Source: Spirochaetae bacterium HGW-Spirochaetae-4 | GTDB taxonomy: Bacteria; Spirochaetota; Spirochaetia; Sphaerochaetales; Sphaerochaetaceae | Assembly (NCBI GenBank): GCA_002839335.1 | Contig: PGXU01000025.1 | Coordinates: 1-41,624, forward strand | Length of the DNA: 41,624 nucleotides | Direction of reading: 5' to 3' | In this document: piece by piece, positions 37,578 through 41,623 of the stretch | Position numbering within the stretch: position 1 is the first letter of the stretch | How the letters are laid out: each line of letters begins with the position of its first letter | Position numbers and translations under genes: made by a program | Notes under the pieces: model-generated | Told to the model about the DNA's origin: nothing | Seen by the model: only the letters and a program-made list of their open reading frames with translations | Databases searched by the model: none

Positions 37578-37649
37578 GGGCGCGTAACTCAGCGGGAGAG
37601 TGCTACCTTCACACGGTAGAAGTCGTTGGTTCAAACCCAATCGCGCCCA
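37578..37649 (+). tRNA. tRNA-Val (anticodon CAC)
   Basis: A 72-nt cloverleaf: acceptor stem GGGCGCG/CGCGCCC, D arm ACTC/GAGT, anticodon stem CTACC/GGTAG with loop TTCACAC and anticodon CAC at 37610-37612, T arm GTTGG/CCAAT with TTCAAAC, discriminator A. CCA is not encoded. Codon GTG is read. Confidence 0.95.
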
Positions 37650-37655
37650 TCAAGC

Positions 37656-37685
37656 AACAACCAGTCGAACAGGCTGGTTGTTTTT
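37656..37685 (+). terminator. Terminator after tRNA-Val
   Basis: AACAACCAG (37656-37664) pairs with CTGGTTGTT (37674-37682), followed by a T-run. Confidence 0.85.
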
Positions 37686-37700
37686 GTCGAGGCATGTGGC

Positions 37701-37725
37701 TGCTACCGTGTGAAGATTTAAGTCG
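37701..37725 (+). other. Degenerate copy of the tRNA-Val anticodon arm, possible att site
   Basis: TGCTACC (37701-37707) and AAGTCG (37720-37725) repeat tRNA positions 37601-37607 and 37620-37625, exactly 100 bp away. Between them the 7-nt tRNA loop TTCACAC is replaced by its reverse complement GTGTGAA, followed by GATTT in place of GGTAG. As a result 13 nt (37703-37715) are also an inverted copy of 37607-37619. Many integrases use a tRNA anticodon loop as crossover, so this may be an attachment site or scar at the edge of the AT-rich segment. Confidence 0.6.
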
Positions 37726-37958
37726 GATCAGGATTATGTTTAGGATTTCCACAAACCTCTCTAGAAATGCCCTACAAGCCCACTTTTCTCTAGTTATGGA
37801 TTTTTTTCCTAATATCGATCGTCTTCACGATGTTCCAGCCATGCTCGTACAGCATATAGTCCGTATGCACCAAAACAAGATATTCATTTGTGCTATTCAC
37901 TTAGTTGTCTTATGATTAGTTTAAGTTGCTTTTAAAAACAACTTTGGAGGCATACCAA

Positions 37959-38933
37959 ATGACCGTTCCTAATTTGTATTGGCCTATATATAAAAATTTG
38001 GAAAACGAGTGTTTAGCTGTTGCAAATTACATCCACTTTGCTGACGATCAGCTAGGGGTATATTCGGCAATTATTGCAGATCTAATTGTTCGTTGTTCTA
38101 TAGAGATTGAGGCTCTTGCTAAAGATCTTTACCAACAACTTGGAGGGGACATGTCACCAATTGACGATATTGCGGGAACCCCTCGCGACCCATATTTTGA
38201 TACTGATTGTCTAGATTTATTAGAACAGAAATGGAAACTGAGTAAGAAACAATTAAAGCTTACCTCCATAAATTTCTATTTCACAGATATTAAACATCAG
38301 ATAATTAACCCTTTGCATAAAGCTAATAAGCGAGGAACAAGCGGAAGCAAATGGAAACAAGCATATCAAGCAATAAAACACGATCGAAAAAATTCCTTAG
38401 CTAAAGCGAATATTTGCAATTTGATTCACTCTATGGGGGCTCTATATATTTTAAATTTATACTATAAAGATGATAGAATTGATATTGGTCGGGTTTATCT
38501 TAATGATGCTAATTTTGATAGCCGAGCAGGATCAGAAATTTTTTCAACATTTACTGTTAAAGCAACAAGTTTATCCATGTCTAAAGATATGGATGATTCA
38601 AACATCCAGGGATCCTCAGAAAGTGATTTAGAAAAATCAATATTTATTATTAAGTATGATGACAAATCTTTTTTTGAAATGCACGAGAGCCATATAAAGG
38701 ATCTTGAAATTACCGTACAAAATTTTAGGAATTCAAAAGAAATCCAAACGTATTTTGAGAAATATCCTGAATCGCAATTTAAATCAATAAATCAAGCGTG
38801 TTTTGAAATAGGTGGTATAGGTCTATTAAGTCGGATTGTTTGCACAAAGCATACAATGCAATTAAAAACCCATAGATTGGAGGCAAAACTAAACAAACAC
38901 AACAACATTTACCCAAAGGTACCTGAATCATGA
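37959..38933 (+). CDS. Orphan AT-rich gene, possible HEPN-like protein
   Basis: A 324-aa hydrophilic protein that I do not recognise firmly. It is mostly helical; residues about 35-60 (AIIADLIVRCSIEIEALAKDL) and 135-170 (WKQAYQAIKHDRKNSLAKAN) resemble HEPN-type helical bundles, in which a polar pair on one helix can form an RNase site, but the classical R-x4-6-H is not clear. No signal or membrane segment. Its base composition and codon use (many AAA, ATT, TTT) differ sharply from the core genes, pointing to recent transfer. GGAGG lies 8 nt before the start at 37959. It stands alone between tRNA-Val and a gene-free stretch, so an anti-phage or mobile-element role is conceivable only. Confidence 0.75.
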   Translation: MTVPNLYWPIYKNLENECLAVANYIHFADDQLGVYSAIIADLIVRCSIEIEALAKDLYQQLGGDMSPIDDIAGTPRDPYFDTDCLDLLEQKWKLSKKQLKLTSINFYFTDIKHQIINPLHKANKRGTSGSKWKQAYQAIKHDRKNSLAKANICNLIHSMGALYILNLYYKDDRIDIGRVYLNDANFDSRAGSEIFSTFTVKATSLSMSKDMDDSNIQGSSESDLEKSIFIIKYDDKSFFEMHESHIKDLEITVQNFRNSKEIQTYFEKYPESQFKSINQACFEIGGIGLLSRIVCTKHTMQLKTHRLEAKLNKHNNIYPKVPES

Positions 38934-39355
38934 TTAGTTCGAATTTGAAGGTTCTATCATCCTGACCTTGACTACTATTGCTATCGAAATTTTTCTCCAG
39001 GGCTTTTTTTTCTGAGAATGCTTGCCCACTGATTGGAAGGTTTTGTTGTTTTCTTTATATTGGGATCAAAAGCAATCGATCTGGTTAACCATACGCTGAT
39101 TCATCCGCGGGATCGTAGCCAGGCTAAATATAATGATACAATAAAAAGTTTTATAACATATATGTATATTGGAAGAAGCAATCAATATTGCTCCTCCGCA
39201 AGACGTTCAATATGGAAGATTACTAAGGATACCTGATATGTTGGGTAGGAATCATCCGAAGTAATACATCATCAAGAAGTTCGGACGAAGCAGCAAGGGG
39301 CTCTTCGCCCCCTGCACTCCCTTAATGGTAAAATAGATAAATCGTTGAATGGCTC
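38934..39355. other. AT-rich gene-free stretch between convergent genes
   Basis: About 420 bp without a convincing gene; one 67-codon frame (39033-39236) lacks a ribosome site and any family pattern. It contains T8 near 39005-39012, an inverted repeat AGCAAT-N4-ATTGCT (39177-39192) and the hairpin at 39293-39316. It may hold the worn end of the transferred segment. Confidence 0.5.
39293..39316 (-). terminator. Hairpin after the surface-protein gene
   Basis: GCAAGGGGC (39293-39301) pairs with GCCCCCTGC (39307-39315) with one mismatch. It lies about 40 bp past the minus-strand stop, but the T-run on that strand is weak. Confidence 0.45.
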
Positions 39356-41623
39356 CTAAAAAACCCGTACGGGCCGAACTTTATATGCGTTAGCTCGACC
39401 ACCGAACGCGTAGTCATACTGCCCTCCATTTTGGAATTCGTGGATCCATGCAAATTCATCGTTACTCTCTGAGGAACTCCAGTAGTAGTTCCAGGAAAAA
39501 CCTCCTTTACTTTGCATTTGAAGGTTTTGGTACATGAAATTCAACTCATCCTTAGAAGGAAGGAACCAGTCGTCGTAAATTACCCCCTCATTTTCAATTG
39601 AGAATTCATCACATATTTTCGCCGCTACCGTTCCATCATTCCCCTCATAATAATCTTTAGGATTGGCGTAATAATCTCCCTTCTCTGGATACAATGTCCA
39701 CAAAGTATCATGATAACTTATAATATTTGCAGTGTTTTTCGCCCCAGTCCCTATTCCAGTAGCAGTTGCAGGAGGATCGACCGTATATCCTTGAGCACCC
39801 CATTGAATATATGGATCATCATCTCCTATATAGGTTCCAGCAGAATGAGTTTCCTTATCATACCATCCATACGGTGCTGCCTCCAGATACCTCCAACCAT
39901 CAATTTCGTAATTCGGATTATCATAGAACACCAATCCACCAGCGGGTCCAACAATAACATCGAAAGTCCACTTGGCATATAGTGTCCGATCTATAGTACC
40001 GGTGAAAACAGTCGATTCGGTCACCAGACTTCCAGTTCCATCAAGTCCTGTCCACCATCCAGAAAAGTTATAGCTTTCACGGGTTGCTATAGGTAATTCG
40101 CCATACATCTGCCCATACGTCACTATCATGGTATCTGAGCCGTCATAAAGTCCTCCCTGAGCATCAAATGTTATGGTTTGTGTATTGGGCTGCCATACCG
40201 CATAAAGTATGTGATCTGCATTAATCGCGACAATCGTATCTGGGGTGACTTCACCTCCCTCTCCTTCTGGATCCACATGCCACCCTTGGAATGTATGCCC
40301 AACTTTTGCTGTATTTGCCAGCTCTCCATACGCCAATCCATACCCGACCGTTATATAAGTTGGACTTGGATTAAGTCCTCCTTGACTGTTGAAGCTGATC
40401 CTGTAGCCATCGCCCCACTTCGCATTGAGAGTAATATCGCCATCTACATAATCATGGATGAAATCCCATTGGTCTGTCAGTTCACTATCTGTGAACCATC
40501 CTTCGAAGCTGAATCCCACCCTGGTGGGGGCTGTTGGCTCGCCTACTGTATATCCCCAGTATACGGTTTGGGGATCCACCAAGCTTCCTCCATTACTGAC
40601 GAAGGTAACCGTCTGCTCTTGCAAAATGATCTTCACCGTCAATGAAAAAGTCTTGGTTTCGCTAATCCCGCCTCTACTGATTGTCGCAGTGAGCACCACC
40701 GTCACATCCGATTCCCCGGTGTAGTCGGGCCTGTTGACTACCCCGCTGGTGGAGATGGTCTCAACCGCACCACTGCTCCATGTAATTGTTGTGCCATTCG
40801 TTCCACTTGACGGGAGATTCACATTTTGGGTGACGTTGTCCGCGTTGTCCAAACCTGCAAATCCGACTTCCAACAATTCCTTGTCCGCTGCGACAGCTTC
40901 GGCATCGGTCTGAGGCAGCTTGGCGACAGTTAGTGTAAAACTTTTGGTCTCCGCAACAGTTCCACGCGTGACTGTTGCTGTAAGTTGTACTGCCGCGTCT
41001 CCAGCAGAATGGGCCGGTCGTGTCACCAATCCACTACAGTTGACTAGACTTTCATCACTGCTGTTCCACGTGATATGTGTCCCATTCAACCCAGTAACAG
41101 GTAAAATCACATTTTCCGTCACGTTCGCAGAGGTATCCTCCCCTGCATACCCAATCTCAAGCGATGCAAGGTCAGCGGCAACTTCCGTGGTGGCCTGGAG
41201 GACCTCCACCGGTTGCCGATGACCGCCAACAACTTCCCCGTCACTCACAAGAAGGCTGATGTTATAAAGGCCGGCAGAATTGGAAGAAAATATGTATTCA
41301 TTTGCATTTATACCTCTACTTCTGCCATTCACAAACCATCGGAATGTTGCTTCATCCCCGTATGTGCCTACGGCCATCACCGTCACATCTTCCTCTTCTT
41401 TTACCGACTCAGGCAAACCGGTAAAAGATACGTCGAAAGGGTTGTCCATTTCCTCCTCAATGGTCAGAGTAACACTCCCAATCCCTAAGCTAAACTCTTC
41501 CTCGGATATCACAACGATTCCACTCGTTATCTCATCGTTAACAATCCGCAATGTATAGACTCCCTGCCAAACAGGCTCATCCTCACTTCCAGGAATACCC
41601 TCGTACATCTCGACTTGTACCAC
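39356..41623 (-). CDS. Large surface protein with Ig-like and InlB-type repeats and DUF1566-like end (5' end outside window)
   Basis: At least 755 residues; the frame runs off the window, so the N-terminus and any signal are missing. In order: a PKD-like part (about 55-145), two atypical bacterial Ig-like units (each with LLEVGFAGLDNADNVTQNV-type start, ITWSS and TLTVA), three Listeria-Bacteroides (InlB B-type) repeats of about 70 residues ending FEGWFTDSEL, FQGWHVDPEG and FSGWWTGLDG, and a C-terminal DUF1566-like domain (WFLPSKDELNFMYQNL, YWSSSESNDEFAW, KVRPVRVF). Such proteins are exposed on the cell surface and bind glycans or host/other cells. GC is lower than in the core genes. Confidence 0.9.
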   Translation of the reverse strand: MVQVEMYEGIPGSEDEPVWQGVYTLRIVNDEITSGIVVISEEEFSLGIGSVTLTIEEEMDNPFDVSFTGLPESVKEEEDVTVMAVGTYGDEATFRWFVNGRSRGINANEYIFSSNSAGLYNISLLVSDGEVVGGHRQPVEVLQATTEVAADLASLEIGYAGEDTSANVTENVILPVTGLNGTHITWNSSDESLVNCSGLVTRPAHSAGDAAVQLTATVTRGTVAETKSFTLTVAKLPQTDAEAVAADKELLEVGFAGLDNADNVTQNVNLPSSGTNGTTITWSSGAVETISTSGVVNRPDYTGESDVTVVLTATISRGGISETKTFSLTVKIILQEQTVTFVSNGGSLVDPQTVYWGYTVGEPTAPTRVGFSFEGWFTDSELTDQWDFIHDYVDGDITLNAKWGDGYRISFNSQGGLNPSPTYITVGYGLAYGELANTAKVGHTFQGWHVDPEGEGGEVTPDTIVAINADHILYAVWQPNTQTITFDAQGGLYDGSDTMIVTYGQMYGELPIATRESYNFSGWWTGLDGTGSLVTESTVFTGTIDRTLYAKWTFDVIVGPAGGLVFYDNPNYEIDGWRYLEAAPYGWYDKETHSAGTYIGDDDPYIQWGAQGYTVDPPATATGIGTGAKNTANIISYHDTLWTLYPEKGDYYANPKDYYEGNDGTVAAKICDEFSIENEGVIYDDWFLPSKDELNFMYQNLQMQSKGGFSWNYYWSSSESNDEFAWIHEFQNGGQYDYAFGGRANAYKVRPVRVF

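Follow-up and report, generated by a model that had tools for sequence, protein, structure and literature searches.

Exactly 100 bp behind the anticodon arm of its tRNA-Val(CAC) gene, the window (the whole stretch of 41,624 nucleotides analysed here; its genome is designated G000) carries a second copy of this arm in which the loop is inverted. According to the sequence comparisons of this study, this copy, which we call core' ("core prime"), is one end of a recurring site where Sphaerochaetaceae stack whole anti-phage defence systems without an integrase of their own. Core' probably represents the distal of two cores in a unit of ~120 bp, carried by integrase-less modules that would integrate in the anticodon loop of tRNA-Val(CAC) through a recombinase acting in trans. 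The anatomy of the loci, as far as it can be read from sequence, shows that integration takes place in the anticodon loop, that the unit regenerates the tRNA, that modules are stacked, and that cargo is bounded by the core and core'. The features of the window are listed in Table 1.

Table 1. Features in and around the attachment unit of the window (positions are those of the window).
Feature	Position	Strand	Basis
tRNA-Val(CAC) gene, whose anticodon arm serves as primary attachment core	37578..37649	+	ARAGORN; crossover in the loop from G145 and G148 versus empty site G150
Primary core: arm GAGTGCTACC, overlap TTCACAC (37608-37614), arm GGTAGAAGTC	37598..37624	+	Sequence; half-tRNA junctions from the loop in G145, G128 and G148
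Intrinsic-terminator-like hairpin and T run behind the tRNA, part of the repeated unit	37656..37686	+	Sequence; predicted fold; equivalent terminators in other units
Attachment unit: tRNA 3' half, terminator, spacer, core'	37608..37724	+	Alignment of 12 units or unit fragments
Core' (inverted-loop copy): arm GGCTGCTACC, inverted overlap GTGTGAA (37708-37714), arm GATTTAAGTC	37698..37724	+	Sequence; G001 comparison; unit alignment
Final stretch common to the window and G001; homology stops	37725..37745	+	94% over query 1-176; match ends at 37745
AT-rich downstream segment, probable cargo, right limit approximate	37746..39300		GC about 0.34-0.38 versus 0.56-0.60 to the left
ORF of 324 aa (335 aa from upstream TTG at 37926), sole sizeable ORF of the AT-rich segment	37959..38933	+	No family match

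The anticodon arm of the tRNA reads TGCTACC (37601-37607), TTCACAC, GGTAG and AAGTCG (37620-37625), and the copy reads TGCTACC (37701-37707), GTGTGAA, GATTT and AAGTCG (37720-37725). The original prediction, made from the letters of the window, had described precisely this: two shared blocks at identical spacing around a reverse-complemented loop, and a perfect inverted repeat of 13 nt (37607-37619 and 37703-37715). Both descriptions are confirmed, and the repeat extends to 16 nt (37607-37622 and 37700-37715) if one mismatch is allowed. The 13-mer is present only at these two sites of the window in the entire genome, in a search that allowed up to one mismatch. The right arm of core' in the window is decayed relative to that of the nearest relative, G001, where it still reads GGTAGAAGTC.

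At the equivalent place G001 has TGCTACT-GTGTGAA-GGTAG-AAGTC, i.e., a complete anticodon arm with its loop reversed. Core' lies 94-112 bp from the primary core at tRNA-Val(CAC) in G000, G001, G138, G145 (twice), G148, and G149, in these relatives on the same side of the tRNA and at a similar distance as in the window, and displaced copies occur in G004 and G128. Among 395 genomes of the class, a strict search with a gap of 64-94 retrieved the exact pattern from five genomes of two genera only, and the reversed control gave zero. A mismatch-tolerant search of 139 genomes of the family, which also matches the tRNA itself, found inverted-loop copies in the genus of the window and in one other genus, g3. 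Of 87 distinct tRNA loci that were read, 45 were tRNA-Val(CAC); a close inverted copy was confined to these and always lay downstream, with none convincing beside the 42 other tRNA loci. The comparison of related tRNA-Val(CAC) loci that had been proposed as a check thus yielded five relatives with the copy and an empty site in G150. In G002, the third genome of the window's genus, core' is absent and an integrase gene stands behind the tRNA instead. Carriers of the unit were found neither in viral contigs, searched with two patterns, nor in plasmids. A solitary core' was observed at G129:C1:1660544-1660560, between 9-bp direct repeats AAGGTTTTA and with no part of a tRNA nearby; the intergenic region that holds it exceeds that of relatives by about 85 bp.

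The crossover point follows from the empty site of G150, where the tRNA is directly followed by chromosome. G145 and G148 match G150 up to the 3' end of the tRNA, and the match resumes at the anticodon loop after 40.6 kb in G145 and 21.4 kb in G148, which places the crossover at TTCACAC; both have at their far end the displaced tRNA 3' fragment that characterises genomic islands of the anticodon loop, and half-tRNA junctions beginning at this loop are also seen in G128. The suggestion of a tyrosine-recombinase-type core on the anticodon arm, with the 7-bp loop as overlap and the stems as arms, is borne out by this comparison; an anticodon loop serving as 7-bp overlap is known (PMC8371274).

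The unit recurs at the tRNA and between tandem modules. In G145 the tRNA is followed by unit 1 and a 28.7-kb BREX segment, then by a half tRNA with unit 2 and a Fic gene, then by decayed unit 3 and an McrBC-like segment, and finally by a half tRNA and the chromosome. Cargo starts directly after core', ranges from about 2 to 29 kb, and includes BrxA, BrxB, PglZ, BrxL, a methylase, McrBC, and Fic, several of the gene names in the arrays (e.g., BrxC and McrB) being assigned by eye only. G148 has two C5 methyltransferases directly after the unit and an MzaC/Z1 protein slightly further, and in G149 and G140 a decayed unit comes after the Fic module. In G140 the half tRNA borders a gene pair that looks IS21-like by eye, and this element may have cut it. 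In G004 a gene of 5.9 kb, encoding a DUF4011-helicase-MTES_1575 protein, separates the tRNA from a displaced tRNA end with terminator and core', and therefore another crossover, nearer the 3' end of the tRNA, was probably used there. G128 contains a phage-like element with an integrase, and its half tRNA and unit are displaced 26 kb away. The tandem arrangement of BREX, Fic, and McrBC-like modules at tRNA-Val(CAC) in G145:C1:2459784-2500427 marks a defence hotspot of genus g3.

In complete genomes the unit of ~120 bp consists of the tRNA 3' half, the terminator, a spacer, and core'. The alignment of twelve units or unit fragments starts at the anticodon loop and holds as far as the end of the core' right arm; beyond it the sequences were unalignable. 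The 7-bp overlap is inverted in 12 of the 12 sites read (mean 6.7/7 inverted versus 2.0/7 direct); it is the exact reverse complement of the tRNA loop in nine sites and matches at 5-6 of 7 positions in G128 and the two most decayed copies, and the alignment shows the loop conserved across units while the spacer diverges. Decayed copies are unit 3 of G145 and unit 2 of G140. At nearly all sites the arms of core' fit the directly oriented tRNA arms at least as well as the inverted ones; the sole right arm preferring the inverted form is that of G004. The left arm of core' resembles the 5' arm of the tRNA, not the complement of the 3' arm. Since the two tRNA arms are alike at 8 of 10 positions, this distinction rests on two positions per arm, though it is consistent. 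An inverted overlap between direct arms is, judging from these alignments, a general feature of the sites.

Core' had been thought to be an att site or scar. The former is upheld, because integrase-less modules start at core' and integrase-bearing elements lack it; an accidental scar of one element does not agree with a conserved component of a repeated unit. Likewise, the coincidence with the start of AT-rich DNA is a boundary to foreign DNA, but the copy is not tied to the AT-rich segment found in the window, because in G001 it precedes different DNA; homology between both genomes continues for ~20 bp past the copy. No far attachment site or second unit was found in the rest of the window, up to the contig end at 41624; as this draft contig ends before any far boundary, only one module end is seen in G000. 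With its decayed right arm and its far module end outside view, the unit of the window is probably old, and G000 and G001 may hold fossil units. An inverted tRNA 3' half, the anticipated outcome of recombination between the two cores, was seen at none of the loci read. On the minus strand, positions 39356-41623 of the window hold an open-ended ORF of 755 aa that by eye resembles a repeat-bearing surface protein and matches PHROG families of unknown function only.

In G145 and G148 the stretch from the tRNA to the ancestral flank gave no match to PF00589, and neither did the locus of G149; the tyrosine recombinases of these three genomes all lie outside the arrays. Integrase-bearing elements directly behind tRNA-Val(CAC) occur in G136 (integrase confirmed as PF00589), G137, G128, and G002, each without core' there, and the expected integrase with GTGTGAA in its attP was not found. 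Nearly every g3 genome searched contains a stand-alone tyrosine recombinase of about 400 aa, located about 550-670 bp downstream of smpB wherever smpB was recognised in these loci. It shares 33-34% identity (183-228 bits) with the tRNA-Val integrases of G136, G137, and G128, versus 106 bits for one other integrase compared; in a wider search other integrases scored similarly to the tRNA-Val ones. This enzyme is a weak candidate for the one acting on the unit, and a candidate only, because in g3 it occurs in genomes both with and without arrays and it has no close relative in G000 and G001, where the closest proteins share 23-28% identity. No convincing att-like cores were found near it. A role as ssrA integrase was considered and rejected, as no tmRNA was found between smpB and the recombinase gene. 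In G145 this recombinase is encoded at G145:C1:2212271-2213485 (L154:5272-6486; orthologues in L199-L214), the gap between it and smpB is very AT-rich, and an inverted repeat TACTTACTGTGACACAGTAAGTA lies upstream of it (L200, about 1350-1380).

By analogy, CTXphi is the most specific known parallel of the two-core unit. Its attP1 and attP2 are inverted, about 90 bp apart, and pair in single-stranded DNA into a site for host recombinases, and once integrated it retains one functional site beside two att copies that are non-functional (PMC3089051). The unit similarly has two opposite cores about 90-110 bp apart, for which pairing in single-stranded DNA is predicted; the element encodes no recombinase, and one full core stays near an end after integration. 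It differs in its target, the anticodon loop of tRNA-Val with a 7-bp overlap rather than dif (by eye, its core bears no resemblance to the dif sites, used by host XerC/XerD, that are given in PMC3089051), and in its cargo, which consists of defence systems and not of a filamentous phage, while the single-strand stage of the unit is predicted only. With tRNA islands and CIMEs the modules share the displaced tRNA 3' half as direct repeat, the tandem stacking, and the lack of an integrase: G145 and G148 have att ends and no PF00589, and the integrase inside the island that is typical of tRNA-targeting islands is lacking in G145, G148, and the locus of G149. Here, however, the repeated unit extends further, to the terminator and, where the cargo begins, to a second core whose overlap is inverted. 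Integron arrays also have cargo modules separated by a repeated site with inverted cores and a recombinase outside the cassettes, but the core here is tRNA-derived, and in G145 a distance of 287 kb separates the candidate recombinase from the array. Moreover, no IntI-type integrase was found (the candidate scores 24.8 bits versus a cut-off of 265 for integrase_gron), and by inspection the attC consensus boxes RYYYAAC and GTTRRRY are absent, the unit ending in the tRNA-arm cores TTCACAC and GTGTGAA.

In the mechanism that we propose, a tyrosine recombinase would act in trans to join the module to the tRNA core, and this joining would rebuild the tRNA. The module may be recombined as a folded single strand, in which the core would pair with core' into a duplex site, as attP1 and attP2 of CTXphi do. 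Predicted single-strand folds contain a core/core' stem of 12-14 bp on both strands, for the window as well as for the junctions of G145. That the inverted second core exists for such folded recombination is a tentative idea, drawn from this analogy; it is weakened by large modules such as the 28.7-kb BREX segment, which have no obvious single-stranded stage, and the hairpin is not the sole reading, since pairing with the primary core is not what the arms of core' are optimised for. Equally likely, and quite possible in its own right, is a double-stranded attP of the ordinary kind that carries one more core, inverted: core' would be an additional recombinase-binding site in the left end of the element, involved in directionality or autoregulation, and the modules would be mobilised in trans by integrases of neighbours at the same tRNA, in a CIME-like accretion. 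This predicts an identical integrated anatomy, and the tandem accretion in G145 and the related integrases at the same tRNA in G128, G136, G137, and G002 speak for it; cis-mobilizable elements have been discussed before, as has accretion at a tmRNA gene (PMC3146451). Alone, however, it leaves unexplained that unrelated cargos all start directly after core', that the overlap is inverted every time, and that core' is missing from integrase-bearing elements.

Rather unlikely, in our estimation, is a hairpin-mediated microinversion, in which the anticodon arm was duplicated directly, the 7-nt loop of the duplicate flipped between its 5-bp inverted stems, and the product was then inherited. Inversion of short hairpin loops is a known class of mutation, and direct arms with an inverted loop would arise in one step, but this covers the origin of core' and not its retention in two genera, and it is silent on the recurrence at module boundaries and on the conservation of the loop beside a diverging spacer. 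Both alternatives share our main claim, that core' is part of an attachment site, and differ on its working or origin. A further alternative is an RNA function as anti-tRNA, to which the 7/7 complementarity of a hairpin loop GUGUGAA to the anticodon loop of tRNA-Val and the CTACC/GGTAG stem of some copies might point; it is very improbable, given that the copy sits behind the terminator of the tRNA, that the stem is broken without compensation in core' of G000, unit 1 of G145, and G149, and that the site coincides with cargo boundaries. The probability of chance similarity, which was from the outset considered very unlikely and which nothing but the shortness of the match favours, is negligible: from base composition, ~2e-6 such 13-mers per locus are expected within 250 bp downstream of a tRNA, and the recurrence in several genomes, a stronger argument than this probability, refutes it.

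Returning to the two-core unit with a recombinase in trans, a further and speculative extension, which we consider unlikely, is an integron-like capture of defence genes based on a tRNA: a chromosomal stand-alone tyrosine recombinase related to the tRNA-Val integrases would insert whole defence systems, folded as single strands, into the anticodon loop of tRNA-Val, the two-core unit regenerating the tRNA each time. Direct arms, an inverted overlap, and a fixed distance from the tRNA provide a signature of the boundaries of integrase-less defence islands. The movement of such islands thereby becomes testable with regard to the presence or absence of core', a single- versus double-stranded substrate, and the recombinase involved. 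If the hairpin reading is true, CTXphi-style single-strand integration would no longer be confined to filamentous phages but would also cover tRNA targets and defence cargo of large size.
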